DNA of 64,000 nt, from assembly GCA_002794775.1 (NCBI GenBank), contig NBAY01000078.1, positions 62,001 to 126,000 on the forward strand. The letters run 5' to 3'. The notes under the pieces are model-generated. The model ran no database searches, was not told where the DNA came from, and saw only the letters and a program-made list of their open reading frames with translations. A program made the translations under genes and the position numbers. Position 1 is the stretch's first letter. Every line of letters begins with the position of its first letter. Below, piece by piece: positions 3,779 to 51,870 of this stretch. Origin of the DNA: Porodaedalea pini. Taxonomy: Eukaryota > Basidiomycota > Agaricomycetes > Hymenochaetales > Hymenochaetaceae.

Positions 3779-3864
3779 TAATGTTGAATAAACAGTCCAC
3801 TTCAGGCTAGCCCTAAAAGTAGACCTATTAGGCTAATTCTTACACACAGATAATTAGCCTATTA

Positions 3865-4060
3865 GGGGTCAGGTTTGGGTGTACCCAATTTTCTGGGTGT
3901 GCCCAGTGGGTGTGAGCTGGGTATACCCAATTGTTATTACTGTGGGAAAATTGGGCCTACCCAGCTTCTAGGGCACTCCCAACTGGGCCTCCCCAATGTT
4001 CCTAGGTGGGCATGCCCTGGGTGTACCCAGATATGTCACTGTCACTGACTGTCTGGGGGA
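3865..4060. repeat. Subterminal TGGGTRTRCCCA motif cluster (left)
   Basis: Within 75-260 bp of the left end of E the palindromic core TGGGT(A/G)T(A/G)CCCA and degenerate forms such as TGGGCCTACCCA recur several times on both strands. The mirror cluster lies at 48120-48315. Arrays of short motifs just inside transposon ends are commonly transposase binding sites; that role is inferred here. Confidence 0.65.
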
Positions 4061-5189
4061 CTTTTGGGCACATCCAGAAAATCATCCCCCCCTTCCCTTT
4101 TATTTTTTTATTTTCTTCTTCAGCTGCATACTTCTAATGGCTTCATAGATGCATATATAAATATAGGTTGCATGCTGAGTGTGCATCTGCTATTTTAAGT
4201 TCTGTATATAGCTTGTAGACATTATAAAGAATGAAAGTCAATTATATTGACATCTGAGCTTGCTATTGCAGACTACCCATTGTCAAGTGCAAATAGCAAG
4301 CTGTTTGATTAAGCTTTGAGCTCAGTTTTGAATATATCTTGACCTCAATCAAGCTCAAATTTTATTCATTTAATTTGGGACTTCATTCTACTTCAAAGTT
4401 CAAATCTCAATTCTATTGCTATATTTTTTTCTCCCTTGGGTCATAACAATCAAGCTAGAACCTCATGATTGATTCTTGAGCTCTACATTCATTCTCAAAT
4501 TGAGCAGCTTCTGTAAGCTCACTAGAGCATTCTTAATACATCTGACTTAACACCAACTGGCTGGACATCATGTCATGCCTCTGAGATACTGAGCTGCTGA
4601 TATTTCAAGATGCACAAACTCCAGAAGGCCACCATATAGCTGTACCATGGCTGCACTGAGTCTGAGCCTGAAACTTGGTGGCAGCATAGCCTCTGGACAT
4701 TTGGAGCATAGCACATTATATTCTATTTATATTCTTTTCATATCCACTTCACTCCCTAACTCATCCAAAGCTAATATGAACTCATTCAAAGCTCATATGC
4801 ACTTGCACTGAGTCAAGTGATCCTTTAGCAGACATATACCAAAGATTTACATATTCTGAGAGTAATTCTCAACAGATTCCTTTCAGACTGGTATTGTATA
4901 GTTCATATTATATAATCCTTTCTATTTGAACCCTTTCTGATGCCTTTGTTGCCTCAGTCTCTCTGACAGCAACAAATATTGTTTTGTCCTGTCTGTCTTG
5001 TGGGCTCAAGTGTTGGCACTATCCAGGTGCCTTCTATATAGGATCAATTTATTACTGCAAAGAGAAATAAGATTAGATACTACTGAGATAAAAAGGAGAG
5101 CCTGACTAAGAGAGCCTAGATGTTTTAGGTATATATAAAGATTTTGAGATGTCCAGTTAGATGTGCCTAAAACATTTGAGAGTGTCTAG
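4061..5189. other. AT-rich non-coding arm sequence
   Basis: No coding frame or family resemblance. Between the two motif arrays of the left arm. Position 4310-4311 is the TA that in the other arm is the target of block T. The rest of the outer arm, 5353-5658, is likewise without recognisable features. Confidence 0.5.
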
Positions 5190-5352
5190 CTAGGTATTCC
5201 CAGATATGTTGGGTGTGCCCAGTAAGGCACTCCCAACCATCTGGGTATGCCTAGTTGGGCACTCCCAATTATTTGGGTATGCCCAGTTGGGCACTCCCAA
5301 TTATTTGGGTATGCCCAGTTGGGCACTCCTAACTATTTAGGAATACCCAGTT
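5190..5352. repeat. Tandem ~32-bp subterminal repeats (left)
   Basis: About four units of the form TTGGGCACTCCCAATTATT followed by TGGGTATGCCCAG, with the same palindromic core as the outer cluster at 3865-4060. Mirror array at 22875-23037. It probably belongs to the same recognition-site system of element E. Confidence 0.7.
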
Positions 5353-5658
5353 AGGTGTGCCCAGCTACTTATTGTCTTTTTTAATTCCTGTCTAAGATTT
5401 TTTTTCTTTTTTTGAGAAGTAAAAACTGTTATGTCATAAAAATCAAATGGGTCTAGAATAGAAGCCTGGAATATTCTATGAAGAATTTCTCAATCATTAT
5501 ATTCTAGGCTCTGAATCTTAGCTGCCTTGCTCTGAAGACCAATCAACACACTACAAGTCACTGCAGGTCAGATGACAATGTTGTTTGATGTGAAAGCAAA
5601 AGAAAGTAATGTTTTCTGTGCACTGAGCACTGCATGTTGGTGAGCTACAATGACCATA

Positions 5659-6687
5659 CTAGAACATGCTCCAAGGGTCAGCAGCATCATACTGATCATG
5701 TTGGTACAGAGCATAGCTTGGGGAGTTGAACTGATCCGCCAGGAAAATGAGCAAGTTCATAGTAGCAGTGTACTTGTTGAGGCCATGGTCACTGTAGTTG
5801 AAAAGTGAAGTTGCACCCTGAATGTACATGTGCAAAAAACCACTGAGGTTCAAGTTTGGGTTGTTACTGAGCATACCAAACTCTAAACCAGTTGCTGACA
5901 CAAGCAAAGAGGTCATCTCAGACTAGCCAGTCATTCTGAAGTACCAATAGTTTGCTGTCTCCACCCACAAACCATCATCTGAGACAGCAATGCAGTTCTC
6001 CTTCACATTCACAACAGTAAGAGGAAGAAGCTGCACTATGTTTCCAGTCATGTCATCACCAAGGATGGTGAGAGATGCCAAAGTGAGACTACCATTGCAA
6101 ATACAGTTCTAGTTACCCTTAATATTGGCATCTGACCACCAGCCATTTGTGCCCTGTGTCAGAGCAGCAATGCCAAGGGACAGACCATACTGGTTCAAAG
6201 TGGACCAGATCATCTCCTTCTTGTCATCAGCCCACATGTTGTAAAGCTAGTTGTAAGCAATACCAAAAGTGGCAGACATTTCAGTAGTGTCAAGAAAATG
6301 AGCAGGACTCCACCTGTCAACAGCAGGATCCCATGAGGTTGAGCCATTGCCAGCAGCATTCTGCAAGTATAACATATCAGCATGTATGAGGATGCAAATT
6401 ATATAATGAGCCAAACCTGGAGCTCTAGCCAGGTACAGTCAACTCACGATGAATCATTTGTCATGTGGTAGACATACACAAAGGCCTTATGCACTCTTTG
6501 ACTTGATGGCAGGCATCAAGGATACCACTGGTGCCATCCATGAAATATAGGGCAGGGTTCATGGCCTTCCAATCAGAGGCATTGCCAAAGATTGTCTGGT
6601 TCCAGCTGCTGAAGTAAGAGTCATGTGCAATAAGGTTAGGCAGCACTTCCCACTTGAAAGCTGGCTCAATGAGACGCAGCCAGAGTG
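5659..6687 (-). pseudogene. Heparinase II/III-like fragment, left-arm copy
   Basis: Exact inverted copy of 21540-22568; see that entry for the residues and splice site. Read on the minus strand from 6687 to 5659, it has the same in-frame stops as the other copy, so both are non-functional. It shows the fragment was already decayed before the arm was duplicated, or that the arms have been homogenised since. Confidence 0.7.
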
Positions 6688-7066
6688 AAAGTAGCATGTC
6701 TTCCTCACAGTCTAGACCTGGTTCTTCTGCATGGTGATGGTCATGTTGATGTGATGCTCTGGGATAAATGCACGGCTGCATCATCTAGCAGCATCACAGC
6801 ACATCTAAGTGCCCTGTTTGCCATGCCTGCCTTCATCCTCACATGACCAAACTCCGGGCTTGCGCCTGCATCTGAAAAGGGTGGACTTGGGAAGTGCATC
6901 ACATTGTGCACTGCAGAGACCAGAGACAATCCAAATGTGCTTGCACCCTAGCTTTTCATGCATTGCATGCCATGTGACTGCTCTTCCTGCAGCGGCATAG
7001 TACTCTTGCCGACCCAGAGACATGGTCCTAGGGCATCACCCAGTGCACATTCATGGCATCCAACCA

Positions 7067-8005
7067 CATGTGATGGGACCAGAGAGATTCACCCATGTTC
7101 AATTTGAATAGCATCGATCCTGTAAGAATTTTGATATGAGAGTGAGTGCGGTGACAAAAGTGCACTGCAGGTGAAGAAGCGGCAATGACAGAGGTGACAG
7201 CAGTGTGAGCAGTTTTGCAAGGATCTTACAATGCTTGTCATTAGGCTGCCTTTGAGTCTGCATCTGCTGAGTGGATGGAAGTGAAGCATCCATCTGGTAG
7301 GCTGTTGGCACATGCAATCTGTCAGAGGGGTCCATTGACATCAGCTCTGTCGGAAGACCACAGGGGTTGGATGTGTCCAAAGAGGTATTCACCTTTGATG
7401 AGAGAGACACCTCACCTTCCCTCTTATCCAACTCTGGCTCACCCCATCACCTTTCCCCGCACCGCCCCGGTGCAGCAGAGCACTGACTGCAGGATGCTAC
7501 ATCTCGTGCATGAACAGTGAGGCAAGTGCGATGCAGCACATATACGACAAAGTGTGCAAGCGTATTTGGTATCACTGGTGCCCCTCTTGATCCTACCATT
7601 GTGGTAGCAGGGGGCACGTGAGATGACTGCAGTTGAGGATGATGTGGAAGAGGTGGAGGATGACAGAGGAAGGATCTTGGGGCAGTTGAAGGTATGGCTG
7701 ATGAAGCACACACAAAGATTGCTGGTGTCTTCATGCCCATAGTAAGTGTTGACTGCCGGTGGGGGTGCTGCTGGTGCAGGGTGGTGTGAGTGGTGTGCAC
7801 GCAGGACTGCCAATGTCTGTTTTTTTGTCAAATGTTTTCGGCGTAGTCAGAGGGAAAAAAATGTGATAGAGAAAAAGACACCGATCAACAGCCGCTCATC
7901 ACTCAAGTATCAGAGATTGGGGGGAAAGAGGGGGGATGCTTACAGAACCTGAGGTAGATGCTGCAGCAACAGCGGACACAGAAGATGATTTTGCAGGTGG
8001 AGGTG
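7067..8005 (-). other. Unrecognised coding-like block, left-arm copy
   Basis: Inverted copy of 20222-21160. The longest frames are 130 and 110 codons on the minus strand, rich in Ser, Pro, His and Cys. I do not recognise the protein; see the right-arm entry. Confidence 0.35.
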
Positions 8006-8025
8006 GGGCATACATCATGTGGTGC

Positions 8026-8420
8026 TGTTAGGCAGGAGTCTGGGAGATGACTCGGACTGGGCAAGCCTCAGCTGACTGTTGTCTGGGATGTGCTATACTC
8101 AAGCAGGGACTCGGGACACACTGTACTCAGGCTAGGTCATCGTGGAGGTAAGAGGATTAATACAAGTCTAAGCTAATACAAGGGGGACGAGTCTCACCTA
8201 GGTCGTCACAGAGATAAGAGGAAAAGCAGAACAAGGAGTTCATGCGATTCCTGAGACCTTATATAGCGATGACCATGAGACTATATTACCTAACATTACA
8301 TATGGGTGGGAATGGAACAAATGAAGGTCATCTGGAAGGGGCGTGGGAAGCAATTGGAAAGATGATTAAATATAATGAACAGGGGCGATTAAAAGAAAAG
8401 AGGAAGTTCGAGTCCTAACA
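8026..8420 (-). repeat. Solo gypsy LTR in left arm
   Basis: 395-bp LTR of the same family as gypsy elements A-C, here in reverse orientation. It is an inverted copy of 19807-20201 and is flanked by the same GCACC duplication in mirror form. A shared insertion site in both arms means it inserted before the arm was duplicated. Confidence 0.85.
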
Positions 8421-8806
8421 GGTGCACGTGCTGGAAGGGCAAGTGGTTCAAGCTGGCACTCGATGATGATATCAAATGCTAATGCAGATGAGGGTGGGGA
8501 TAGCATGGGGTGTGGACGGTGGCCATACTTGCTGCGGTGGGCTCTCTGGCTCTGGGCGTTGATAAGCATCTGTGAGCATCAAAGGACAGGTGGAGTTGAT
8601 GCATGAGAAGAGGTTGCTGCAAATGTTTTGATTGGAATGAGATCCTTCTTAGACACAATGGTTATGTCACGTTCACCAAAGTGAGCAGTGAGAAAGGCAG
8701 TTGGGAAAATGGCTGACGTCGATGCTGAGGCATGTGGAACATTGGCGGGGGCAGAAGGAAGAGGTGAGGAATGTGTCCCAGGTGAACAGGGCAAGGGAAG
8801 TTGAAC

Positions 8807-9186
8807 CACTCGACAGTTTCAGTAGATGTCGCCAGTCCCTCCCTGCCCAACAATGACGAGAGAGAGGACAGTGATGTTGTGACCGATGATGCAGCCATGG
8901 ACCGGCTTGCACCTTCTCACCAGTGCGGCAGAGATGGTAGCAAGAGTGACCAGCAGAAAGGAGAAGGCAAGCAGTTATGAATGAGTACACCCTGCTTCAT
9001 CGGGAAGTCCTGCTCATCATTTCTACCAGAGATGCAGAAGACATAGCCTCTGAACTCATCACCAAGCAAGTCGCTAGGGACACCTGGGACATCTTCTTGC
9101 CATGGAAAATGTGGTAACGATGCTCATCATTGATGTTGATTATCTTTTGCTGGCCCATCACCAGGTCAGTGATGTCAACACTTCAT
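8807..9186 (-). pseudogene. Ribosomal protein eS6 gene fragment, left-arm copy
   Basis: Inverted copy of 19041-19420 with identical sequence; the evidence is given there. The same frameshifts are present, so this copy cannot make eS6 either. Confidence 0.7.
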
Positions 9187-10259
9187 GGCCAGTGGTGTCT
9201 TGGTGAGCTCGTCATGTTCTGTCCCTTCAGGCAAGCAAAAAAATGCTGAGAAGTAATTATTAGTATATTTAGATAGGTTTTATGATTTTTGTTTGTGCTT
9301 ACCTTGAGTGCGTGGCTAGTGGGACACCTGAGCTCATTGTCGATGGTGGAGATGAAACAACATGAACAATGACAACGCGTTGGTTGTGTTGCCTGATTTG
9401 GCCGATCAACACATCTTAAACAAGCAATCAAAGCATTCCGAGTCTTTCAGACATCTCGAAAGTCTCAGCTGTTGGCCTCAAAACAATTCTACAGATGTGT
9501 TTAAAAATAGAAAAAAATATGGAATAGTTTTATTATGTATGTATCTCTAGCATATCCAAGAATTACATGTCCAACACATTTTTTTATGGAGTCATAAATA
9601 CAACAGTAATCTTGACATGCAGTACCAGGCCTCCAGAAGCATACACAAAAGTAAAATATATCCTGAAAGGCCTGACAACTAATCTGCCATGAAGTAAGTG
9701 TTACATTGTGTATGTATGCAAGGTTTCAAGCCAATCAGACATGAACTGACTTCATAATAGAGAAGGAGGTGACTTCATGAGATCTCCTGAATCTGAGTGT
9801 TTTGTATATCCTGTTCCCATTTTTTACTTTGATGGCACATAAAATATTGGGCATATCCAGAATGGATATATATATGTTTCTGAAAATTTACAAGTTTCCA
9901 TCCTCAATGGTTGGAGCTGGGTGAATTGCAAAACATCAAAAATCACAATTTTTAGAAGTTCAGAGAAAGCATATATTCATGTTTTTGGTTGGTTCAAAGT
10001 ATGAGAAGCTCAAGAAGAGTAGTTGATTGTATTTAAGTATGCTCCAAGAAAGATATCCAGTCCTTAGTTTTGTGGGTGAGGGAAAAGTTCGGAATGGGGA
10101 GTGAAATGAGAGGTGATACAGTTCATGCTTCGTGAAACTCAACACAAATCCAAGAAACATACAGCAGTTTTGCATGTATTTCCTCTCCCCCTTCAGAACT
10201 TTCCTCTAACTCCGAGATATAGCACCTGATTACATTTATTGTAGTCATTAAAAGTATTA
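9187..10259. other. AT-rich arm sequence without recognisable genes (left)
   Basis: Mirror of 17968-19040. It contains a 62-codon and an 82-codon frame on opposite strands, the latter holding an intron-like GT..AG segment just upstream of the eS6 fragment, but neither has motifs I can name. Confidence 0.45.
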
Positions 10260-10965
10260 CTGCCCTTTTCAGAAGTATTGTCACACATCAAATTCATGTG
10301 GTTTTGACACGTCTTGTGGCATAACTGCAGAAATTCGAGTAAATGACAATTTACTGTGTCAATTCCTCATGATAAATGTTCACTAAGCACTCAAAAAAAT
10401 GTACTTGCTCATCTGAATCTGAATCTGTAAAAATATCTGGGGTTAGATGAATTTTTTTGTCAAAATAAGTCAAACAATGTCGACCAGCCCTGTTTCAACA
10501 CCTCACCCTCACTAATGCAAAACTCATACCCCTTTCCTCTCATCCCATAATTTTTTTTTCTCCACCTGTAAATTAGGTTTACATGTATGGCAATCCCATG
10601 CATAAGTTTGGTGTCACTCTGTGCACCATTCGTGGTGTAATGGGGATGTTTCTGTTCTTTGGACACCTGCTCTCACCTGGGTTTGGACAGTCCATTTCAT
10701 ACAGCTCTACCAATTTGACAGGTAAAAATACAAAATTTCTTGCATTACATAGACAATCCTATCTACTACAGCCTGGGTTATTTGGGGGCCCCTCCACCTT
10801 GATTTGACACTGTAGCGGTGATTTATTTTTGACCTGCATGCCATAGCACCATGCGCCATCTGCACATCTGAAGTATAGAAGTTGGGAACAACATTTTGCT
10901 TCATAAGTACTACTCCATCTCAAGAAGAGATGGCCACAGATATCTCACTGGCATACCAGGTGAGC
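10260..10965 (+). mobile_element. Tc1-like element end, 5' fragment
   Basis: Begins CTGCCCTTTTCAGAAG after a TA (10258-10259) and is closely similar to 23918-24630, including the block around TGTATGGCAATCCCATGC and the block ending GGCATACCAGGTGAGC. Only the non-transposase left end is kept; similarity stops near 10965. The inner breakpoint of E's left arm (10775/10776) lies inside this fragment. Confidence 0.8.
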
Positions 10966-12000
10966 ATATCAGCTGCATCGACACCGCATGGTGTGACAGC
11001 AGAGACGGCAACAAGCTGTTCCTGTGGTACAGGTAAGCCAGCCTTGCCAGTGTCTGGAATCCTGGTGCAGGATCCACCATTGCTGCAGCCACCGCAGACA
11101 ATGGCTGAGGTGCATATGGTGACTGTTGGATATCTGCATGATGCGTGTACTCCTGGTGCATCGGTGTGATAGGTGGCATGCCGTACCCATACATTCCTGC
11201 CACTGCTGATGCCGACGATTGTCCAGTCGTTAGGTGCCCATTTGGTGACTTTGTCCGCTCCCGTTCACACTTGGCGTGCACCTATTCATAGGAAGGCCAC
11301 GCAGATGGGGTGTGGCTCGACTGGCGCAAGCTGCGGGGCAAGGGCAAATGTGCCTGCGCCTGCATCACTGTCACTTTCCCCATACCCACACCAGCACTGT
11401 CATCGACACAAAGTGTGTCACTCCACTCAAGCAGGCAGTGCACCTGCACTGGGTGCAGCATCTGAATCTGTCTTTGCTCCCTGTCTTGCAAACTCTGACA
11501 TCTGTTGAGCGGCCTGTTGAACTTGTCGGCACTTGCACTCAAGCTGCTCAACGACTCTGATGAGGACAAGTCATCTAGCGGTGGTCACTCCCGTTCTTGG
11601 TATGAACTTTGATGCTGGCGTTGGCACCGTTGTTGGGATTGCTGTTGGGATTGCTGCTGGGATTGATAATACCGACGCATGTCCCCTGGCTCCTCCGTGA
11701 TCCCGGATATCCCAAACCCTGCAAAACTTGCATTCTGGTTCTGGCTTGTTGCCATAGCCATCGCTGGTGGGCCATGCATTGGTCAGGCACAGATGCATGT
11801 CTTAAAGCCTCATCTCATTCTTGCCCTCGCTTGTGCACAAAATGCGCCGCAGACTCTGGGTGGACACCATACTCCTGCTGCTTGCTGTAGTCATCTGCAG
11901 GTGCAGAGCGATGGGACTGTGATTGTGACTTTGCACTCCCCTTCCCCTTTGCCTCACGGTCCCAATCACACTCAGATGACCCAGCACGTTGTCAGGTGCG
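10966..12000 (-). pseudogene. Remnant of a Gln/Ser-rich protein gene
   Basis: Several minus-strand frames look like pieces of one decayed gene. The upstream piece (about 11779-11585) reads MAMATSQNQNASFAGFGIS, then EEPGDMRRYYQ and a run of QQQSQQQSQQ. Next (about 11569-11282) is an SSSESLSSLSAS segment. Then (about 11281-10966) comes a region with MYGYGMPPITPMHQEY and PLSAVAAAMV. The low-complexity Gln/Ser/Pro composition is that of a regulatory or scaffold protein, but no domain is recognisable. It sits in the unique centre of E, next to the Tc1 fragment. The frames are separated by shifts and stops, so I treat it as a pseudogene of unknown function. Confidence 0.35.
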
Positions 12001-13691
12001 GTGCCTGTTTGAGATCAAATTATGCAACTATGATATTAGGATTCTTAATCACATTCACTACACTAAAGCAAGCAGAGTAATTCTAGACATCCAAGTGGTG
12101 AAGGGAACCCCTATGCATATGATTCAGAGACTCAGATATAACAAAAACAATACAAAGAAAGAAAGAAAGACACACTCAGAAGGCGAACCCAAGTCAGGAG
12201 GGGACATGTGGACTTCTATAGAAACTTCCACCATAATTCTGATCACGATGTCAAAATGTGTGTGCAATAAGTAATCTGATGACTCATACCTTATATGTAA
12301 TGGAACCTCATTAGATGGCTAGAGTGGTCTAGACCATAACTCAGCCAAGCGGTCATGCAGCATAGAGCAAAGAGCATTAATGTTTAGAAGATAGAGTGAT
12401 GGCATGGCAGATTGCTGATAATTAGTGAATATGAAGACAGAAACCAGTATTTAACAAGTACAATTTTCTCAATATTGTCAGTCTGTGCAGATGCATGCAA
12501 AGACAGAGTTGTTTTCAGGAACTCACCGAGTGATGGAAGCACAGTCATGAATTCTCTGTCATTAGTGCTGATCCATAGAAGAAAAGATCAGCCAAGCCAT
12601 TTAGCAGACAAATGGAAGCACAAAGAAGGTTATGGAAGAATTAGAAGGTCAGGGAATGTTATAGAACCCCGATGGAATTGCATGGAACAGTATAGATTGT
12701 TGATGGAATATCTTAATATTGAACCGACAAAGGCCCTTTTGCCCACAGCCACCATCAGAAATGACAAATTCTGACAAATTCTGACAAATTCTGACTAAAA
12801 TTTGTCAGAATTAGTCACTATTAGTCACTATTAATCAGCCTTCTCTCTGCCGCTTTTGCACCTTTTATTACAGCACCCCCCCAAAGCAGCAACTACAGCT
12901 GCAGATCACAAAATACCCTCAAACCGGCATCTCACAGATCACTCAAGCTGGCAACTCTGCAAATCGCTCAAAGCGGCAACTCTGCAGATCACTCAAAGTG
13001 GCAGCATACACACAACACTTTGAGCTCAAACAACCCATTTCTCACTTGAACAAAATCGGAAAAATCATTAAAAATTTAAATCTAATTAGAAATTTAATAT
13101 GCCATCTTCCCCATGAGTATTGGTGTATAAATTGCCACATCACATCAACTAATTTGAGCTTTCTTGATGATGAAAAAATAGTTTGCACATATAAGACAGC
13201 ACAGAGCCTTTATGTTATATTAGGACTCACTCCAATGGATGTCCCAAGGAAAAATAAGGTGATACATGAAGCTGAGAACATAGGAGCATAACTTGCAGCC
13301 AGACTGAAGATTGCAGTGAAGTACAATATAAGGTTGAAAGCAGTACTCTGAGTGAGTAAGTCAGAGCCTCCAGAGAAAAAGTCAGCAAGGGAAATCTTTG
13401 TTTAAGCATTGAATTTCTACATGATCCTCATCCTACAACACTGAGCATCATTCCAGAAAACATTGAGGAAGAGAGATCTACAATATGACTACCTATAACT
13501 GTAGAAGTTGCAAGTTAAGCAGAAATGTGCAAGAACAAAAAAAAGGATATATATTAGTAATAAGCTTACTACACCTGTTCTTACACATGGGCAACTGACA
13601 TAATGTGACAACCAATATTGTATTTAGTGGGGCTTTAGTGTAATTATAATTTCACAATAAAGTTCAAGTTTCTTCCAGACAGACTAAGATA
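12001..13691. other. AT-rich centre of E, no gene; short tandem repeats
   Basis: No recognisable gene. Two small repeat patches: near 12760-12830 direct and inverted copies of TTCTGACAAA / TTTGTCAGAA with repeated TTAGTCACTA, and 12895-13010 three to four copies of a ~25-bp unit CGGCAACTCTGCAGATCACT. Scattered frames up to 120 codons (12412-12774) show no motifs. Confidence 0.5.
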
Positions 13692-13796
13692 ATACAGGTG
13701 GGTGTAAGTGAAGTCTAAGTCATGTGCACCAGTTTGGCTGGGAGTTGCTGCATAAAGCTTGCACATGACTCAGCTATCACTTATACCCACCTGTAT
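13692..13796. mobile_element. 105-bp two-stem hairpin (possible MITE)
   Basis: Ends ATACAGGTGGGTGTAAGTGA (13692-13711) and TCACTTATACCCACCTGTAT (13777-13796) are near-perfect inverted repeats. A second nested pair, AGTCATGTGCA and TGCACATGACT, lies inside. Size and structure fit a miniature inverted-repeat element; no target duplication was established. Confidence 0.55.
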
Positions 13797-13834
13797 ATTG
13801 CCTGTAGAACTCAGATAAAGCTAGAATAGATATG

Positions 13835-14307
13835 TGTTAGGACTCAAACTTTCCACTTATTTTGATTTTAATCCATCTCCCTTTTCCTTTAATATTGCGC
13901 ATTCATCTTAATCACTTTCCTTTCAATGCCAATCCATGCTATATAATAAGTTCTCATGCTTATGTCAACCACAATCCTTCCCACACTCACTCCTTCAGAT
14001 GCGACCTTCATTTGTTCCATTACATAAACTATATAGTTCTTAGATAATATGGTCTCACAGGTCCTGAGCTTAAGAGGGAAGCAGGAATCATATGAACACC
14101 TGTTCTACTTTTCCTCTTACCTCTATGACAATCTAGGTGAGATCGTGTCCCCCTCCTGTAGTAGTATATGTTATATTAATCCTCTCACCTCCACGACAAC
14201 CTAGCCTGAGTACAGCGTGTCCTGAGTCCTTGCTCGAGTATAGCATGTCCCAGATGATAGCCAGCCCAGGCCGTCTCGCTTGAGCCCACCCAAGCCTCCA
14301 CCTAACA
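13835..14307 (+). repeat. Solo gypsy LTR in the centre of E
   Basis: 473 bp, TGTTAG...CTAACA, same family as the other gypsy LTRs in the window but diverged. Flanked by the 5-bp duplication ATATG on both sides, so it is a clean solo LTR left after recombination between the two LTRs of an element. Confidence 0.88.
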
Positions 14308-14330
14308 ATATGAGCACTGTGTTTAAACCC

Positions 14331-14635
14331 AAGTCCTGGTGAAGCTAGGATGGATCTAAGCATTGCATTTAAAAAAGCAAGTCCTGGCAAAGCCAGGATG
14401 GATCTAAGCATTGTGTTTAAAAAAGCAAGTCCTGACAAAGCCAGGATGGATCTAAGCATTGTGTTTAAAAAGGCAAGTCCCGGCAAAGCCGGGATGGATC
14501 TGAGCATTGCATTTAAAAAACAAGTCCTGGCGAAGCCGGGATGGATCTGAGCATTGCATTTAAAAAACAAGTCCCGGCGAAGCCGGGATGGATCTAAGCA
14601 CTGCGTTTGAAGCGAAGTCCCGGCTTCGCTGGGAC
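14331..14635. repeat. ~48-bp minisatellite, about six units
   Basis: Units of the form AAGTCCTGGCAAAGCCAGGA followed by TGGATCTAAGCATTG and a T/A-rich spacer. Each unit contains a small inverted repeat (TCCCGGC...GCCGGGA). It starts just after the solo LTR. The long minus-strand frame over it is only a translation of the repeat. Confidence 0.88.
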
Positions 14636-15306
14636 TTCAGCTGGTGTTAGAATATCAGAGAAGGTTCTAGAACTTAGTCACCATAGTTACCAAATCTATA
14701 AATATACCACTGTAGTCTATATAAGGAGGGCCTAGCCCCCCCACATTATAACGATTTTACTTGTGATTTATTGTGTGATTAGTCTGACTTATTTTGTTAG
14801 GACCAGTGTTGGAACAGGTGACTAATCTGTCCAATGTACCGGAACTAGTAGATGTCCTTCTCGAAGACTCTAGGTAAGCGTTCTTGAGCTAGTTGTATGG
14901 AAGGGTGATTGGCTTGTTGAGCGCTTGGTCTTAGCAGGAGAATAACAGTAATAGCAGCGAGCTGTGGGCTCAAGCTGAACTAGTATTGAAGACGTGTCAA
15001 GGGCAGAAGAATTTTGCTGAGGAGACAAGGGCGCTCCTGCTCGCCTCTTTATAGAGTTTGGGTTCTTCAAACCTTAGCTCCACAGCTAACCTAATTCTAA
15101 CTAGTCGGGAAATGACTTCTCCACTTCTCCCGTGATCTGCAGTAATTCGTAGAACCTTCCGCTCCACTATGACATCGTTGTGTGCTATAAATAGCCACTT
15201 GCGCCACTTGCTCCAAAGTTCTCATGCTTTACTCCACCGTTGTGGAGTATTGCATCATGGTGATGTCACTGTGCTATAAATAGCCACTTGGTTCCGAGAG
15301 TCTCGT
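14636..15306. other. No gene; promoter-like TATA segment
   Basis: Contains TGTTAGAATATCAGAG near 14646 and TCTATATAAGG near 14719, an arrangement like the start and TATA of an LTR, but no partner copy or end could be found. Two near-repeats of TGTGCTATAAATAGCCACTTG occur at about 15180 and 15268, each a TATA-like box followed by the same 10 bases. Confidence 0.4.
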
Positions 15307-16152
15307 CTATTCCCTTTCCAGGGATGAGTCATCCATCGGTTGATCGGTAGATTCGGTGGTGCCTGTCTGGCTTCCTCCTGGTGCAGGGACTGGTAGTGGG
15401 TTTCCTTCACCACTTCTATCGTCCACTAGTCTGGTTGCTGCCATTAGGCCTTCTTTGTAAGCCCAGGTGTATCCCGTTGTTAAGCCAACTTCACTGGGCA
15501 CTACATCGATGCCAATTACCACTTTGAGTTGTACTCCATAATAGGTTTGAGTAGCACGGCGGTCTACTGTTAAGTAACTGTCGAAGCCCCTTTGCCATGT
15601 AGTGATGAGGTCATCGATGATTTCATCTCTGAGTTCCCAGAGTTCGTGCTGCACTTCTTGTTGTGTCTGGCGGGTAGTGATTGGCCAGTCAAGGAGAATT
15701 GCCCATTGGCCACATTGTCGGTGGTGTTCCCTTTGTGTGATCCATATTGTAAGGCCTGCTAGTGCTGCGTACATTTGTTCATCTGCTAGCCACCATTTGA
15801 GCTCATACATGTATGCCGTACTCGTCCTTCCCTGCATAACTGGCTCCTGCTGTTGTTTGCTGAGTGGTCTGTGCTGTGAGGCAATGAGCATTGTGTTCTG
15901 TACTGACACCGCCTCCAGAACGCATAGGAAGATTTGCTCATGTGCTGCCCATGAGTAATGGTACAGCTCCCAGCAGAAGTTGCACAGCTCCATTGACTCA
16001 GGTAGGTGCATCTTATCGCTTCAGCATGGCCATGCTGTTCGATATACTTCTTGCGCTCGCTTCCTGGCTTTGTCATAGATTGTTGTGGGTGCCTCCTGGC
16101 CGAATCCTGGCTGGTAGGCGAATTGGTTTGTTGTTGATCCTGTCGATCCCAT
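15307..16152 (-). pseudogene. 282-codon frame of unknown function, one in-frame stop
   Basis: Reading from ATG at 16152 the frame opens MGSTGSTTNQFAYQPGFGQE, has a single TGA at 16023-16021 (codon 44), and continues open from MHLPESMELCNFCWELYHYS to a stop at 15307. The protein is rich in Trp, Gln and aromatic residues (for example WWLADEQMYAAL, ELWELRDEIIDDLITTWQRG) and ends in a Gly/Pro/Ser/Asp tail. The length and the coherent composition on both sides of the stop argue for a real gene with one nonsense change. I do not recognise the family. It lies in the unique centre of E on the minus strand; a Gag-like retroelement protein is one possibility. Confidence 0.45.
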
Positions 16153-17451
16153 GTCGATCTGCTGATCCTTCCTAAAATAGCAATTTCCTGTAACATATTT
16201 AGTAAGAGCTTAAGCAAAAGGCTTAAGCAACTAGTGAATTTACTGATCTTATTGTGTGTTAAGACTGACTCATATAGTAAAGCTTAAGTAAGGGGCTTAA
16301 GCAACTAACGCAGTAGTTTAGCATTCATTACGTATTACATTGACGTGTACTTAGCTTGAGCACCTGGCTTGAGCACTTAGTGAAATTATCTGAGAAATCT
16401 GAGCTCTAGAAGATCTAGAGCAAACTGCTATTTGACACCTTAGAAACTAAATAACATACATCTCAGCCTCTCGACAACCTGAGAAGACGTTTGACTCAAG
16501 ACAAGTCCAACTGACTCAGTGGAAATTGTGATTGTGAATATTACACTGTTTTATTTCATTACACTTTCCAGCACGACAATGTCGTGTGCCATCAATCCAC
16601 GCATGCGGTCCATGCTACTGTGTTCTTTCTTCTGTTCTTTCGTTGCTTCTTTCGCCTTCTCCTTCACAGGCCATGCAGCTGTCAGGAAGATATACTCTCC
16701 TCTCCATCCTCTCCCCCCTCTTCATCCTCTTCCCCCTCCTCTTCATCATCATCATCGTTGTTGTCGTCGTCCACAGGATACCAATAATCATACCATTCGC
16801 TCATTCTTCTCAGGATTGCTTGCACTGTCCATGCCATCCCCATCGCAAGTGCATCCACAGGGAGCATCCTTGCACGCTGCATCCCCCAAGCCTGTGCATG
16901 CCCCAGGCCCGTCATCACTGCACTTGCATGCTGGCAAGGTGCAGCCCCAGGGAGTGTCTGTGCACGGCTCACCATCGCTGTCATCTGCACGGCCAAGGCT
17001 GAGGCAGAAGGGTAGCAATCAGCGGATTCAACAGGTACGCTTGCCCGCCTGCCATATGCATGAGACAGTGGGCGATGATGCCTTGCAGCATGGCTGCTGC
17101 TGCTGTTGGATGTCTGGCCTGGCATCTGCACCTCTGGATAGGCAGTATACTGTGCACCACCCGCAGCATCTCATTTGCGGTGCCAAGGCTGGGCAGGGCT
17201 TGGTGCATGCATATTCAGGTGCAATTTGGATGGGGCGAGCGTCACTTTCGTGCTCGATTTTGGTGGGTACAAGTTTCGCTGGGTGATGTCTGACGTGCAT
17301 GAATACAAGGACAATGAGGGCATGCGGGACATGCCGGCATTCACACTAATGCTCTCCTTTATTCCCGACTCAGCTCTACATTCCATGAATTTTAAAAGAA
17401 GAAAAAAAAGGAAATTCATGAATAAGTCTTTATTCACACCACACTATATAT
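16153..17451. other. Centre of E: GCTTAAGCA repeats and an acidic-tail frame
   Basis: Between about 16205 and 16310 the motif GCTTAAGCA recurs in a loose tandem array. A minus-strand frame (17131-16682) ends in a strongly acidic tail after RRMSEWYDYWYP and could be an exon of a decayed gene; opposite-strand frames overlap it and nothing is recognisable. Inner right-arm boundary at 17451/17452. Confidence 0.35.
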
Positions 17452-17967
17452 CAGGCTGTAGTAGATAGGATTGTCTATGTAATGCAAGAAATTTTGTATT
17501 TTTACCTGTCAAATTGGTAGAGCTGTATGAAATGGACTGTCCAAACCCAGGTGAGAGCAGGTGTCCAAAGAACAGAAACATCCCCATTACACCACGAATG
17601 GTGCACAGAGTGACACCAAACTTATGCATGGGATTGCCATACATGTAAACCTAATTTACAGGTGGAGAAAAAAAAATTATGGGATGAGAGGAAAGGGGTA
17701 TGAGTTTTGCATTAGTGAGGGTGAGGTGTTGAAACAGGGCTGGTCGACATTGTTTGACTTATTTTGACAAAAAAATTCATCTAACCCCAGATATTTTTAC
17801 AGATTCAGATTCAGATGAGCAAGTACATTTTTTTGAGTGCTTAGTGAACATTTATCATGAGGAATTGACACAGTAAATTGTCATTTACTCGAATTTCTGC
17901 AGTTATGCCACAAGACGTGTCAAAACCACATGAATTTGATGTGTGACAATACTTCTGAAAAGGGCAG
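17452..17967 (-). mobile_element. Tc1-like element end, inverted copy
   Basis: Reverse copy of 10260-10775, ending CTGAAAAGGGCAG followed by TA. It is cut at 17452, inside the element, which marks the inner breakpoint of the inverted duplication. Confidence 0.8.
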
Positions 17968-19040
17968 TAATACTTTTAATGACTACAATAAATGTAATCA
18001 GGTGCTATATCTCGGAGTTAGAGGAAAGTTCTGAAGGGGGAGAGGAAATACATGCAAAACTGCTGTATGTTTCTTGGATTTGTGTTGAGTTTCACGAAGC
18101 ATGAACTGTATCACCTCTCATTTCACTCCCCATTCCGAACTTTTCCCTCACCCACAAAACTAAGGACTGGATATCTTTCTTGGAGCATACTTAAATACAA
18201 TCAACTACTCTTCTTGAGCTTCTCATACTTTGAACCAACCAAAAACATGAATATATGCTTTCTCTGAACTTCTAAAAATTGTGATTTTTGATGTTTTGCA
18301 ATTCACCCAGCTCCAACCATTGAGGATGGAAACTTGTAAATTTTCAGAAACATATATATATCCATTCTGGATATGCCCAATATTTTATGTGCCATCAAAG
18401 TAAAAAATGGGAACAGGATATACAAAACACTCAGATTCAGGAGATCTCATGAAGTCACCTCCTTCTCTATTATGAAGTCAGTTCATGTCTGATTGGCTTG
18501 AAACCTTGCATACATACACAATGTAACACTTACTTCATGGCAGATTAGTTGTCAGGCCTTTCAGGATATATTTTACTTTTGTGTATGCTTCTGGAGGCCT
18601 GGTACTGCATGTCAAGATTACTGTTGTATTTATGACTCCATAAAAAAATGTGTTGGACATGTAATTCTTGGATATGCTAGAGATACATACATAATAAAAC
18701 TATTCCATATTTTTTTCTATTTTTAAACACATCTGTAGAATTGTTTTGAGGCCAACAGCTGAGACTTTCGAGATGTCTGAAAGACTCGGAATGCTTTGAT
18801 TGCTTGTTTAAGATGTGTTGATCGGCCAAATCAGGCAACACAACCAACGCGTTGTCATTGTTCATGTTGTTTCATCTCCACCATCGACAATGAGCTCAGG
18901 TGTCCCACTAGCCACGCACTCAAGGTAAGCACAAACAAAAATCATAAAACCTATCTAAATATACTAATAATTACTTCTCAGCATTTTTTTGCTTGCCTGA
19001 AGGGACAGAACATGACGAGCTCACCAAGACACCACTGGCC
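17968..19040. other. AT-rich arm sequence (right)
   Basis: Mirror of 9187-10259. A plus-strand frame at 18796-19044 contains a plausible intron (GTAAGC near 18925 to CTTCTCAG near 18980) upstream of the eS6 fragment and may be part of the same or another captured transcript; not recognised. Confidence 0.4.
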
Positions 19041-19420
19041 ATGAAGTGTTGACATCACTGACCTGGTGATGGGCCAGCAAAAGATAATCAACATCAATGA
19101 TGAGCATCGTTACCACATTTTCCATGGCAAGAAGATGTCCCAGGTGTCCCTAGCGACTTGCTTGGTGATGAGTTCAGAGGCTATGTCTTCTGCATCTCTG
19201 GTAGAAATGATGAGCAGGACTTCCCGATGAAGCAGGGTGTACTCATTCATAACTGCTTGCCTTCTCCTTTCTGCTGGTCACTCTTGCTACCATCTCTGCC
19301 GCACTGGTGAGAAGGTGCAAGCCGGTCCATGGCTGCATCATCGGTCACAACATCACTGTCCTCTCTCTCGTCATTGTTGGGCAGGGAGGGACTGGCGACA
19401 TCTACTGAAACTGTCGAGTG
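19041..19420 (+). pseudogene. Captured ribosomal protein eS6 gene fragment
   Basis: Pieces of the 40S ribosomal protein eS6 (RPS6) can be read in order across several frames. After ATG-AAG at 19041 come [16 protein letters not shown] (eS6 consensus GQQKxxEIDDE) and [16 protein letters not shown]. Next are [11 protein letters not shown], then [14 protein letters not shown] (consensus DGHSCYRPRRTGE) and GCIIGHNITVLSLVIVGQGG (consensus RGCIVGxDLxVLxLVIVKxG). Homology ends at a stop near 19397, so the basic C-terminal half is absent. At least three frameshifts separate the pieces. eS6 is a small-subunit ribosomal protein, so this is a host gene fragment picked up by a transposon. It lies between an AT-rich block and a solo LTR within the arm, with an identical inverted copy at 8807-9186. 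Confidence 0.78.
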
Positions 19421-19806
19421 GTTCAACTTCCCTTGCCCTGTTCACCTGGGACACATTCCTCACCTCTTCCTTCTGCCCCCGCCAATGTTCCACATGCCTC
19501 AGCATCGACGTCAGCCATTTTCCCAACTGCCTTTCTCACTGCTCACTTTGGTGAACGTGACATAACCATTGTGTCTAAGAAGGATCTCATTCCAATCAAA
19601 ACATTTGCAGCAACCTCTTCTCATGCATCAACTCCACCTGTCCTTTGATGCTCACAGATGCTTATCAACGCCCAGAGCCAGAGAGCCCACCGCAGCAAGT
19701 ATGGCCACCGTCCACACCCCATGCTATCCCCACCCTCATCTGCATTAGCATTTGATATCATCATCGAGTGCCAGCTTGAACCACTTGCCCTTCCAGCACG
19801 TGCACC
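19421..19806. other. Frame continuing past eS6 homology, unassigned
   Basis: Three overlapping plus-strand frames run through this stretch (for example one containing FSQLPFSLLTLVNVT). Sequence composition is coding-like but not recognised. It ends at the solo LTR. The mirror copy lies at 8421-8806. Confidence 0.3.
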
Positions 19807-20201
19807 TGTTAGGACTCGAACTTCCTCTTTTCTTTTAATCGCCCCTGTTCATTATATTTAATCATCTTTCCAATTGCTTCCCACGCCCCTTCCAGATGAC
19901 CTTCATTTGTTCCATTCCCACCCATATGTAATGTTAGGTAATATAGTCTCATGGTCATCGCTATATAAGGTCTCAGGAATCGCATGAACTCCTTGTTCTG
20001 CTTTTCCTCTTATCTCTGTGACGACCTAGGTGAGACTCGTCCCCCTTGTATTAGCTTAGACTTGTATTAATCCTCTTACCTCCACGATGACCTAGCCTGA
20101 GTACAGTGTGTCCCGAGTCCCTGCTTGAGTATAGCACATCCCAGACAACAGTCAGCTGAGGCTTGCCCAGTCCGAGTCATCTCCCAGACTCCTGCCTAAC
20201 A
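19807..20201 (+). repeat. Solo gypsy LTR in right arm
   Basis: TGTTAG...CTAACA, 395 bp, flanked by GCACC on both sides (19802-19806 and 20202-20206). It retains the LTR landmarks TATATAAGG and GTTCTGCTTTT seen in gypsy C. Inverted copy at 8026-8420. Confidence 0.88.
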
Positions 20202-20221
20202 GCACCACATGATGTATGCCC

Positions 20222-21160
20222 CACCTCCACCTGCAAAATCATCTTCTGTGTCCGCTGTTGCTGCAGCATCTACCTCAGGTTCTGTAAGCATCCCCCCTCT
20301 TTCCCCCCAATCTCTGATACTTGAGTGATGAGCGGCTGTTGATCGGTGTCTTTTTCTCTATCACATTTTTTTCCCTCTGACTACGCCGAAAACATTTGAC
20401 AAAAAAACAGACATTGGCAGTCCTGCGTGCACACCACTCACACCACCCTGCACCAGCAGCACCCCCACCGGCAGTCAACACTTACTATGGGCATGAAGAC
20501 ACCAGCAATCTTTGTGTGTGCTTCATCAGCCATACCTTCAACTGCCCCAAGATCCTTCCTCTGTCATCCTCCACCTCTTCCACATCATCCTCAACTGCAG
20601 TCATCTCACGTGCCCCCTGCTACCACAATGGTAGGATCAAGAGGGGCACCAGTGATACCAAATACGCTTGCACACTTTGTCGTATATGTGCTGCATCGCA
20701 CTTGCCTCACTGTTCATGCACGAGATGTAGCATCCTGCAGTCAGTGCTCTGCTGCACCGGGGCGGTGCGGGGAAAGGTGATGGGGTGAGCCAGAGTTGGA
20801 TAAGAGGGAAGGTGAGGTGTCTCTCTCATCAAAGGTGAATACCTCTTTGGACACATCCAACCCCTGTGGTCTTCCGACAGAGCTGATGTCAATGGACCCC
20901 TCTGACAGATTGCATGTGCCAACAGCCTACCAGATGGATGCTTCACTTCCATCCACTCAGCAGATGCAGACTCAAAGGCAGCCTAATGACAAGCATTGTA
21001 AGATCCTTGCAAAACTGCTCACACTGCTGTCACCTCTGTCATTGCCGCTTCTTCACCTGCAGTGCACTTTTGTCACCGCACTCACTCTCATATCAAAATT
21101 CTTACAGGATCGATGCTATTCAAATTGAACATGGGTGAATCTCTCTGGTCCCATCACATG
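20222..21160 (+). other. Unrecognised coding-like block, right arm
   Basis: Overlapping plus-strand frames of 130 codons (20396-20788) and 110 codons (20796-21128). The first reads TLAVLRAHHSHHPAPAAPPP then NTYYGHEDTSNLCVCFISHT and a Ser/Thr-rich stretch; the second opens MDKREGEVSLSSKVNTSLDT. A possible intron separates them. It may be another captured host gene fragment, as with eS6 and the heparinase on either side, but I cannot name it. Confidence 0.3.
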
Positions 21161-21539
21161 TGGTTGGATGCCATGAATGTGCACTGGGTGATGCCCTAGG
21201 ACCATGTCTCTGGGTCGGCAAGAGTACTATGCCGCTGCAGGAAGAGCAGTCACATGGCATGCAATGCATGAAAAGCTAGGGTGCAAGCACATTTGGATTG
21301 TCTCTGGTCTCTGCAGTGCACAATGTGATGCACTTCCCAAGTCCACCCTTTTCAGATGCAGGCGCAAGCCCGGAGTTTGGTCATGTGAGGATGAAGGCAG
21401 GCATGGCAAACAGGGCACTTAGATGTGCTGTGATGCTGCTAGATGATGCAGCCGTGCATTTATCCCAGAGCATCACATCAACATGACCATCACCATGCAG
21501 AAGAACCAGGTCTAGACTGTGAGGAAGACATGCTACTTT

Positions 21540-30650: not shown

Positions 30651-30684
30651 ACCCTTGGAACTTCTCGGCCAGTCGCCCCAGTGG

Positions 30685-34514: not shown

Positions 34515-34515
34515 T

Positions 34516-39937: not shown

Positions 39938-40351
39938 TGTTAGAACCTGAACTTTCACCTTTTCTTTATTTTCCCCTTTTACCATTTCCTTTATTATATT
40001 CGTCCTTTTTTATTATATTTACCCATCTTACACAATCATTCCCACACTGCCTTCTTTCGTTCCATTCCCACTCATTATGTAATGTTAGGTAATATAGTCT
40101 CACGGTCGTCGCTATATAAGGTCTCAGGAATCGCATGAACTCCTTGTTCTGCTTTTCCTCTTACCTCCGCGACGACCTAGGTGAGACTCGTCCCCCTTGT
40201 ATTAGTTTAGACTTGTATTAATCCTCTTACCTCCGCGACGACCTAGCCTGAGTAAGCGTGTCCCGAGTCTACGCTCGAGTATAGCACATCCCAGACGACA
40301 GTCAGCCGAGGCCTGCCCAGTCCGAGTCGTCTCCCGGACTCCCGCCTAACA
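39938..40351 (+). repeat. Gypsy C 3' LTR
   Basis: 414 bp, no difference from the 5' LTR found by eye. Followed by the ATCTG duplication. Confidence 0.95.
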
Positions 40352-41041
40352 ATCTGCGCCATACAACAAGGTTGTGCCTTCCCACCTCCGCCACGCCCGC
40401 AGCAGCTGCAGGTGCCCCTGGCTCATCGTCAAATGGTAGCCCCCCATGTTGAAAAGTGCGATGCAACCAGCATCACCTTTGGAGGAGCTGGCCAGCCGAT
40501 GGACATCTCAATGAATGAGGCGCAATGGCAACGGGTGTGCTGGATCTGTGGCAAGCTTGGTCACTTCAAGGACATGTGCCCGCAAGGAAAGACAATTGTG
40601 CAGCGCATGCTACAGATGATGGCGCCAGGCGAATGTTGTCTCATCACCGACGAGCTGGGTGCGATGAAGGAGTCAGCCTTCAAGGAAGTCGTAGACACTT
40701 GGAGGACGATGATGGAGGACTATGTGGAGGAAGACAGCAATGATGAAGAGGTCATCGACTCGCAGGATTTTGCAAGTGGTCAGGCATAGCCACTGGGGCA
40801 ACTGACCAGGAAGAACAAGGGGTTTCAAATTCAGACTCGATAAAATATAGTCAACTGTCTGTACAATACTTAGATGCAAATGACGTCAATGACTTTCCCG
40901 ATTATGAAGCCCCCACTGGTGTGAATGGAAATGAAGAGTACGAACAGCTGTTCATGAGGGGAACTGGCGGATGCCAGCTAGACCTCCTCCTGAACATCGG
41001 ATACAACGTGGAAGGTAAAGTGAAAGAGGTGGATGCACATG

Positions 41042-45660: not shown

Positions 45661-46085
45661 TGTCAGGATTCAAACTTTTCTCTTCTTTTATTTTCCTTTT
45701 TATCTTTTCTTTTCTTTTAATCGCTCCTTTTCATTATAATTAATCATCTTTTTCAGTCATTTCCTACACTCTTTTCACATGACCTTCATTTGTTCCATTC
45801 TGTTTGCTTAGGTAACATTAGGTAATATAGTCTCACAGTCGTCGCTATATAAGGTCTCAGGAATTGCATGAACTCCTTGTTCTGCTTTTCCTCTTACCTC
45901 CGTGATGACCTAGGTGAGACTTGTCCCCCTTGTATTAGTTTAGTCTTGTATTAATCCTCTTACCTCTGTGATGACCTAGCCTGAGTATAGCGTGCCCCGA
46001 GTCCCTGCTCGAGTACAGCACGTCCCAGATGACAGTCAGCTGAGGCCTGCCCAGTCCAAGTCATCTCCTGGACTCCCACCTAACA
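45661..46085 (+). repeat. Gypsy LTR abutting truncated A pol
   Basis: 425 bp, TGTCAG...CTAACA, same family. It directly follows A pol at a point about 200 codons before the expected end, and its flanks (CAAGG and GAGAT) are not duplicated. It cannot be a simple 3' LTR of A or a simple solo LTR; a deletion or LTR-LTR recombination is likely. Confidence 0.75.
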
Positions 46086-46620
46086 GAGATGAGAGAGCAG
46101 GTCAGGCACTACAACATCACTCCATGATGATCAGCTGCGTGATGTGCACAGGCCAATCGCTGACTCACCTTCACATCCATTCACACAGACTCAGCCAAGT
46201 CTTGCACTGCTTTCTCTGCTTCAGTTTAGTATAAATTCACAGTAGTTTGTAGAGAGAGAAAAAGGGAGATATGAGACAAGTACAGAGATAGACAGTCCCC
46301 TCTCCACCTCTAGACCGCAATCTACTACATGCATTACTATGCACTACTCGCCCGACTCTCATTCTGAAAACAGTATACACCAACTCTGTCACCAACTCTC
46401 AGAACTCTGTCACCCAATCATCGAACACCCTTGGCCGCTGCCACAAGTGCCGATTCTACCTACACGAGTCTTGGTCCAACCAGAATCCTGCAGGTATCCA
46501 TATCACCAAGTCTTCATATCTTGAACCTCGCTCTACTTAGGTTGTCCCTCTCAGTATACCAAGTCACCGCAGTCCCCCTTGGGTCGATCACAAGCTGTAG
46601 TCCAAATCGCCCTTTGGATT
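46086..46620 (+). repeat. Dispersed repeat, copy 2
   Basis: Same-orientation relative of 1525-2072, roughly nine bases in ten identical by eye. It lies between the LTR at 45661-46085 and the inverted right end of T. Confidence 0.7.
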
Positions 46621-46639
46621 AGAAGAGTCTGCACCCCTA

Positions 46640-47866
46640 CAACATCCATCAGCGCTTGCACACTACACCTCACCTGTACATCCAGATAGTCCAACAGCCT
46701 TGGCCGGCCAGTCCTCTTTCCATCTCTCTCGATGCCCCCAGTAGCCTCCCAGTCTTTTATGATCCGATAGATTGTTCAATGATTGATGTCCATCAATGCA
46801 GAAAGATGGTCCATGGTGAACTCATCGGATTGGTGCAGCTTGAAGAGAATGGATTGCACATCATTCGAGAGGGCCTTGCCACATGTCATTGTGGTGGGAG
46901 AGAAGGGTGTTTTCCTGGTGAATGTGTTCACGTGCCAACCCCTAATCTGCATATACTGCTGACCATTGTAGCACACCAACCTCTCTTCAGCAAAGCCATC
47001 TGCTCTTCTGTCTAGACTGTGGGCAACAATGGTTATGCCTTGCTCTTGACCAAGAAGAGGCTGCCAGCTGTTGCTGTTCTGGATCTGAAAGGACGTCTTC
47101 GAGTCTGTTTGCATGAACATACACTTGTGTATCTACTAGTGGTTCTGCATGGTGGATACGCTCACCTGGTATGCCAGTGAGATATCTGTGGCCATCTCTT
47201 CTTGAGATGGAGTAGTACTTATGAAGCAACACATTGTTCCTAACTTCTATACTTCAGATGTGCAGGTGGTGCATGGTGCTACAGTGTGCAGGTCGAAAAT
47301 AAATTACCACTACAGTGTCAAATCAAGGTGGAGGGGCCCCCAAATAACCCAGGCTGTAGTAGATAGGATTGTCTATATAGTGCAAGAAGTTTTGTATTTT
47401 TACCTGTCAAATTGGTAGAGCTGTATGAAATGGACTGTCCAAACCTGGGTGAGAGCAAGAGTCTGAAGAACAGAAACATCCCCATTACACCACGAATGGT
47501 GCACAGAATGACACCAAACTTATGCATGGGATTGCCATACATGTGAATCTAATTTACAGGTGGAGAAAAAAAAATTATGGGATGAGAGGAAAGGGATATG
47601 ATTTTTGCATATAGTGAGGGTGAGGTGTTGAAACAGGGCTGGTCGACATTGTTTGACTTAGTTTGACAAACATATTCATCTAACCTCAGATATTTTTACA
47701 GATTCGGATTTGGATGAGCAAGTACATTTTTTTGAGTGCTTAATGAACATGTATTATGAGGAATTGACACAGTAAATCGTCATTTACTCAAATTTCTGCA
47801 GTTGTGCCGCAAGACATGTCAAAACCACATGAATTTGATGTGTGACAATACTTCTGAAAAGGGCAG
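46640..47866 (-). repeat. T right inverted arm with transposase fragment
   Basis: Inverted copy of 23918-25144. On the minus strand it carries the Tc1 end and the first part of the broken transposase (through GRPRLLDYLDVQ), then is truncated. Frames at 47015-46656 and 47542-47318 are mirror images of frames in the left arm. Confidence 0.88.
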
Positions 47867-48380
47867 TAATCAAACAGCTTGCTATTTGCACTTGACAATG
47901 GGTAGTCTGCAATAGCAAGCTCAGATGTCAATATAATTGACTTTCATTCTTTATAATGTCTACAAGCTATATACAGAACTTAAAATAGCAGATGCACACT
48001 CAGCATGCAACCTATATTTATATATGCATCTATGAAGCCATTAGAAGTATGCAGCTGAAGAAGAAAATAAAAAAATAAAAGGGAAGGGGGGGATGATTTT
48101 CTGGATGTGCCCAAAAGTCCCCCAGACAGTCAGTGACAGTGACATATCTGGGTACACCCAGGGAATGCCCACCTAGGAACATTGGGGAGGCCCAGTTGGG
48201 AGTGCCCTAGAAGCTGGGTAGGCCCAATTTTCCCACAGTAATAACAATTGGGTATACCCAGCTCACACCCACTGGGCACACCCAGAAAATTGGGTACACC
48301 CAAACCTGACCCCTAATAGGCTAATTATCTGTGTGTAAGAATTAGCCTAATAGGTCTACTTTTAGTGGTAGCCTGAAGTG
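47867..48380 (-). repeat. E right arm, outer part with terminal repeat
   Basis: Inverted copy of 3798-4311 with a few substitutions. It includes the subterminal TGGGTRTRCCCA cluster (about 48120-48315) and ends CCTGAAGTG before AACAGTC. Confidence 0.88.
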
Positions 48381-51854: not shown

Positions 51855-51870
51855 ATGCTTGACCTGACAG

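Follow-up and report, generated by a model that had tools for sequence, protein, structure and literature searches.

The window analysed here is a 64,000-nucleotide stretch of the fungus Porodaedalea pini (contig NBAY01000078.1 of assembly GCA_002794775.1, positions 62,001 to 126,000), which corresponds to C78:62001-126000 in a 53-Mb assembly of 201 contigs. It contains a giant foldback transposon whose two arms mirror each other, and sequence comparison indicates that this element belongs to a foldback branch within the KDZ superfamily that is non-autonomous and very probably moved in trans. The element has the termini CACTTCAGG (3798) and CCTGAAGTG (48380), both bordered by the 7-bp target duplication AACAGTC, which is found on the plus strand at 3791-3797 and, with the same letters, in the right flank at 48381-48387; the ends and duplication given in the original prediction are confirmed. 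The left arm (3798-10256, plus strand) is unbroken save for a solo long terminal repeat (LTR) and aligns with nine other copies of the family across position 4311. The mirrored right arm (minus strand) lies in two parts: an inner part (17971-23916), with 0 differences inside it upon self-comparison, and an outer part of 514 bp (47867-48380), which is severed by a 24-kb insertion and differs from the left end at 3 of 514 positions. The predicted foldback arms are therefore real, 3798-10256 being the reverse complement of 17971-23916 plus 47867-48380. Self-comparison of the window returns the inverted pairs 4310-10775/17452-23917 (100%), 3792-4311/47867-48386 (99%) and 23915-25144/46640-47869 (99%). 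Homology is unbroken across position 4311 in all nine family copies first retrieved whole, so the left arm is whole and it is the right arm that is split by an insertion; the reading of 4312-10256 as a left-arm insertion was rejected on this ground. The size of 20.6 kb first proposed for the element still holds a 7.7-kb central insertion (10257-17970), and without the two later insertions the element proper measures ~12.9 kb.

Both arms carry repeats at mirrored sites. A minisatellite with a 32-bp unit, present in 4-5 units in the left arm (5209-5352, plus strand), has its mirror copy at 22875-23018 (minus strand) in a comparison of repeats. Similarly, a solo LTR (TGTTAGG...CCTAACA) with a 5-bp duplication, GGTGC, is found at 8026-8420 (plus strand), and an identical solo LTR occupies the mirror site in the right arm (19807-20201, minus strand). 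This LTR is private to the window copy, as its full junction was found nowhere else among the best 40 of 463 candidates scored.

The ends of the window element are shared by a family that is spread over the genome. Several of the genome searches scored the best 40 candidates each, and family copy numbers are thus lower bounds. The first 153 bp of the element have at least 42 genome matches (best 40 of 94 candidates scored). When up to 3 mismatches are allowed, a 35-base end pattern has 40 matches versus 0 in a reversed control; for a 17-base end pattern, with up to 2 mismatches allowed, the figures are 130 and 10. Pairing was based on 103 ends (100 listed matches to the 17-base pattern and three ends from the 35-base pattern), and at least 40 inward-facing pairs, with a median length of 14.6 kb, were obtained among these listed ends. 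Including nested insertions, the 40 paired copies cover 655 kb of the genome, and the common termini of the family are CACTTCAGGCTACCCCT and close variants. Ten copies read whole (the nine mentioned above and C35) are palindromes of 12.6-15.7 kb with 6-8-kb arms and a short asymmetric centre. In these ten and in the window copy, most of the element is made up of long inverted ends that contain tandem repeats, as is typical of foldback (FB-type) elements; the minisatellite counts range from 4 to 33 across the ten copies and are equal in both arms in eight of them. In the C65 copy, words of the TTGGG/TGGGC type cluster within the first 400 bp and again within the minisatellite, and these might be candidate binding sites for a transposase.

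Exact target duplications of 7-8 bp flank 26 of the 37 two-ended loci: 10 of 15 in a first set and 16 of 20 in a second, with two further loci, C46 (6 of 7 bases matching) and C25 (no duplication). Near matches are found at three of the 37 (C49, C46 and C40), and the remaining eight have no duplication. As a control, 337 left-right comparisons between flanks of different ends yielded a single match of at least 6 bases, with both ends on C105. The original prediction had proposed recurrent boundaries with 7-8-bp duplications as a test, and the boundaries do recur, with duplications in the proportions just given. Shared ends genome-wide and the 26 exact duplications support the view that a giant foldback transposon has genuinely inserted here.

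A putative source of the transposase is found in two larger relatives with homologous ends. KDZ-domain matches number 77 across the genome, and each of these relatives (C2:501266-530822 and C28:3533-25584) contains one of them. The C2 relative is 29.6 kb long, with an 8-bp duplication, 4.0-kb inverted ends (97.3% identical), a KDZ domain (E 8e-54) and a CxC1 domain that scores just above threshold (27.5 bits against a cut-off of 26.9, E 3.5e-6). The C28 relative, 22.1 kb long, also has an 8-bp duplication and inverted ends of 4.0 kb (98.3%), and its KDZ domain is matched with E 2.4e-59. The KDZ segments of the two are 86% identical. Colinearity between C2 and C28 extends over their full length and includes a block of 11.9 kb at 82%, a 6.2-kb LTR retroelement in C2 being the sole exception; thus, KDZ is integral to both carriers. 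The palindromic copies and C2 have their outer 343 bp in common (87% identity). In the C35 copy, ~370 bp resemble one end of C28 at 87% (81% for the other end) and the inner arms resemble C65 at 90-95%, and one core has therefore been joined to two kinds of ends. Elements of the C2/C28 type likely carry the family's transposase, as the autonomous relative sought after the original prediction would do. None of the 77 KDZ matches falls in the window contig, in agreement with the predicted lack of a matching transposase in the window, although other transposase families were not searched. The suggestion that the family is undescribed or moved in trans is supported by the KDZ relatives with homologous ends, but the superfamily itself is already known. 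A second long reading frame adjoins the KDZ gene in both carriers (C2:519814-522018, 735 codons; split in C28, L107:744-2951), and a Pfam scan of its pieces from C2 returned no match.

It is very improbable that the family should be assigned to a different superfamily that makes duplications of 7-8 bp (P/Galileo-like, hAT or Mutator), with the KDZ genes of C2 and C28 carried along as passengers. Galileo does combine 7-bp duplications with long, internally repeated ends (PMC3573991), and duplications of 7 bp are also reported for the hAT7 elements of rust fungi (PMC12730594). The same duplication lengths are, however, also given for KDZ lineages (7 bp for Kyakuja, 8 bp for Zisupton and KDZ1), and the colinearity of C2 and C28 throughout makes KDZ integral to them; transposases of the P, hAT and Mutator types were not searched for.

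The identity between arms exceeds what the divergence among copies would predict. Within nine copies, the arms differ at 0, 0, 0, 0, 0, 1, 1, 2 and 21 of 4957 gap-free columns, whereas the nearest other copy differs at 3-108 of 4957 sites, and the window copy at 365-387 (~7.5-8%). When pairwise columns that include the edge of the centre are counted, arm differences amount to 0-11, with 37 in C112. The contrast between arms and copies is large for C59, C147 and the window copy. A palindrome formed once, with arms free to diverge, would have arms at least as different as the copies are, unlike what is observed. The arms thus appear to evolve in concert, and gene conversion between them is the likeliest cause. 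In the window copy, 0 of 6464 inner positions differ between the arms (520 bp of which are the central insertion's own inverted ends) versus 3 of 514 in the severed outer part (Fisher p 4e-4), three events being few. Single events, namely the private solo LTR, the captured HSP90 fragment and the minisatellite length, are seen in both arms. In addition, ~275 bp that form the asymmetric centre in C65 are present in both window arms. The orientation of the spacer was considered as a sign of flipping and rejected, because the element has no other asymmetry for comparison.

Taken together, the window element is probably a copy of a non-autonomous, near-fully palindromic KDZ family that is mobilised in trans and whose arms are homogenised by conversion. 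The transposase of a C2/C28-type relative would recognise the terminal and the repeated subterminal motifs, excise the whole palindrome and reinsert it elsewhere. One arm would template repair of the other, by gene conversion via hairpin or cruciform pairing, so that acquisitions of one arm would be written into both. The window element entered a gene, perhaps a BTB gene, and two other transposons moved into its centre and right arm afterwards.

Several findings weigh against this reading. Target duplications are lacking at C112, C86, C90, C105a, C14b, C24b, C30b and C25, as recombination between copies or mis-assembly would produce. The KDZ domain occurs in 2 of 40 copies versus 0.63 expected (P 0.13, with 51 KDZ places from the 77 matches), and 0.21 is expected inside copies for the close KDZ clade of 17 relatives (P 0.019). 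The count within copies does not by itself exceed chance and is no proof, and the link between KDZ and the transposon rests on the colinearity of C2 and C28. Additionally, the fragments of C2 and C28 that were read have KDZ reading frames interrupted by introns or decay. With respect to the arms, C37 and C65, the youngest pair, are 3 sites apart, and distances within and between these copies scarcely differ. The arms of C112 differ at the 21 sites noted above, and the minisatellites are unequal in C116 (33/26) and C51 (20/18). Finally, six contigs (C74, C81, C88, C105, C129 and C179) break off at a distance of 0.3-7.3 kb from a lone element end; contigs that end in this way, together with a C105 flank that repeats a C65 flank, imply that the assembler had trouble with the family, and smoothing during assembly may exaggerate the identity of the arms.

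Taken to its extreme, this last point would make near-perfect arm identity mainly a product of assembly, in which reads of both arms were collapsed or polished together. The six contig ends, the eight loci without duplication and the recurrence of a 100-bp flank of one copy at another are consistent with such an origin, but we hold it to be highly unlikely. At 26 of 37 loci, each side has a unique flank and a duplication, and differing arms do appear in the assembly (C112, C116 and C51). Moreover, smoothing or collapse alone cannot remove the ~8% divergence of the window copy, and cannot readily mirror private insertions such as the 395-bp LTR. A separate observation concerns C105 (L035, L036 and L037), in which the element ends that flank an 80-kb stretch share CCGGGTG, as if circular or mis-joined, and the outer left flank of this stretch recurs as the right flank of the C65 copy.

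A different origin of the identity, which we find unlikely though less so than an assembly product, is that the palindrome is re-made in each cycle of transposition or repair by snap-back (hairpin) replication, such that the arms are identical at birth. This would explain near-identical arms even where a copy is far removed from the rest of the family (C59, C147 and the window copy), the asymmetric C65 spacer that sits in both window arms and the mirrored captures. Nevertheless, the differences between the C112 arms and the unequal arrays of C116 and C51 would require later drift, and the 3 differences in the severed outer 514 bp versus none of 6464 inside fit better with continuing exchange. 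To our knowledge, no known KDZ step performs a snap-back remaking of a palindrome.

Conversion between arms would also bear on host sequence captured by the family. A 1.09-kb fragment of HSP90 is found in opposite orientations at 20 loci and in a single orientation at two more, near contig ends. It is genomic DNA with introns retained, and it differs from the host gene (C3:769757-771424) by 42 substitutions and 6 gap columns over 1089 aligned columns. The host gene is the one full-length close HSP90 gene in the genome, with a weaker relative on C13, and it is closest to HSP90 of Hymenochaetales (94% for Coniferiporia and Phellinidium, 93% for Fomitiporia). A host fragment in several copies with its parent gene in the same genome is what defines Pack-type gene capture; this applies to HSP90 in the sister copies and not to the window copy. 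Both the window copy and C35 lack HSP90 at the same point, where 8 bp are replaced, and a loss by deletion from the window copy was rejected given that C35 has no HSP90 there. The several host gene fragments originally predicted for the arms are unsupported for the window copy: HSP90 is carried by sister copies and is absent here, and an S6e-like ribosomal match in a sister copy is below the cut-off. As a tentative and rather doubtful extension, KDZ transposition or break repair would rebuild the palindrome by copying arm onto arm, which would make these elements self-correcting two-copy molecules; host sequence taken up by one arm would thereby be turned into an exact inverted repeat, and any transcripts of it could form double-stranded RNA directed at the gene of origin, in this case HSP90. 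The HSP90 piece mirrored at 20 loci is a testable case of transposon hairpin RNA against an essential gene.

Comparison with known systems draws on excerpts of each report; the KDZ superfamily, large KDZ elements and foldback elements of other superfamilies are already known. In Cryptococcus neoformans, KDZ1, KDZ2 and KDZ3 are ~9-11 kb long with inverted ends of 241, 139 and 169 bp (PMC12810828). Like the C2 carrier described here, they combine a KDZ transposase with CxC1, and their duplications are 8 bp (KDZ1) or 4-8 bp (KDZ2 and KDZ3) (PMC12810828). In the present family, by contrast, the inverted ends of the transposase carriers measure 4.0 kb and the majority of copies are palindromic. Kyakuja (7-bp duplications) and Zisupton (8-bp) of Agaricomycotina share the KDZ transposase, and Kyakuja termini are CA..TG as in this family, whereas Laccaria Kyakuja families have no inverted ends; the elements of that report were selected for a TET/JBP gene, a gene not looked for here (PMC12730594). 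Giant KDZ elements of the brown alga Ectocarpus reach 30 kb, with nested insertions and transposase-less families presumed to be moved in trans, but no palindromic form is described in the available part of that report (PMC12477816). Among foldback elements, Drosophila Galileo has 7-bp duplications, tandem repeats in its ends, subfamilies that share a core with different ends and chimeric copies without matching duplications, although it belongs to the P superfamily and its ends measure at most ~1.26 kb (PMC3573991). Tetris also has internal tandem repeats, ends shared with another element and a hint of repeat homogenisation, with ends that reach 1,735 bp, unlike this family (PMC4079207). Tm1 is a foldback element with internal tandem repeats and a histone-hairpin motif that may be host-derived, but it is of the Mutator type, its two ends average 93.15% identity and its repeat numbers are often unequal (PMC3169594). 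In these excerpts, described ends extend up to ~1.7 kb for foldback elements and 139-241 bp for KDZ, compared with 4 kb in the carriers and palindromes of 12.6-15.7 kb here. The open-licence literature, as far as the accessible portions of its reports extend, yielded no description of KDZ foldback elements whose matched arms measure 6-8 kb and carry a captured gene in mirror image. The private mirrored events expose arm-to-arm copying in one genome and provide a natural system to study what protects inverted duplications from decay. Elements of this kind are also a source of breaks and confusion in genome assemblies.

The insertions within the element belong to a second family of foldback-like form, which has the ends TTACTGCCCTTTTCAG and duplicates TA. 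The window has members of 1.1, 7.7 and 24 kb; the two larger ones are nested in the KDZ element, and the other is separated from it by 15 bp. The 7.7-kb central insertion (10257-17970) was delimited by self-comparison and has the inverted ends TTACTGCCCTTTTCAG... of this TA-targeting family. The 24-kb insertion in the right arm (23915-47869) has its own inverted ends and TA duplication, contains LTR-retroelement sequence and is 94% alike to the 7.7-kb insertion across 0.7 kb of the end. From 26012 to 46089, it is filled with several related LTR retroelements that are 70-90% alike, some of them inverted in order. Just outside the KDZ element, a 1.08-kb palindrome (2702-3782) has the ends of the same TA-targeting family.

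The interrupted host coding sequence (2534-2704, minus strand) resumes beyond 48388. Its frame stays open across the site once the element and the 1.08-kb palindrome are removed, and the in-frame joining originally proposed thus stands with this second removal. Its assignment to BTB is less secure: since the Pfam BTB score is under the cut-off of 20.5 bits both with the join (13.8 bits) and without it (14.2 bits), a BTB gene is only plausible. To the right of the element, a protein search with the open reading frame at 50418-51218 returned no match. A ~0.8-kb stretch is directly duplicated (49551-50360 and 51771-52585, 94% identical), and an inverted relative of 0.4 kb lies at 61599-62013. An open frame at 56260-58224 (plus strand) encodes a short-chain dehydrogenase domain after a repetitive stretch rich in Ser, Thr and Gly with 33-bp tandem repeats.

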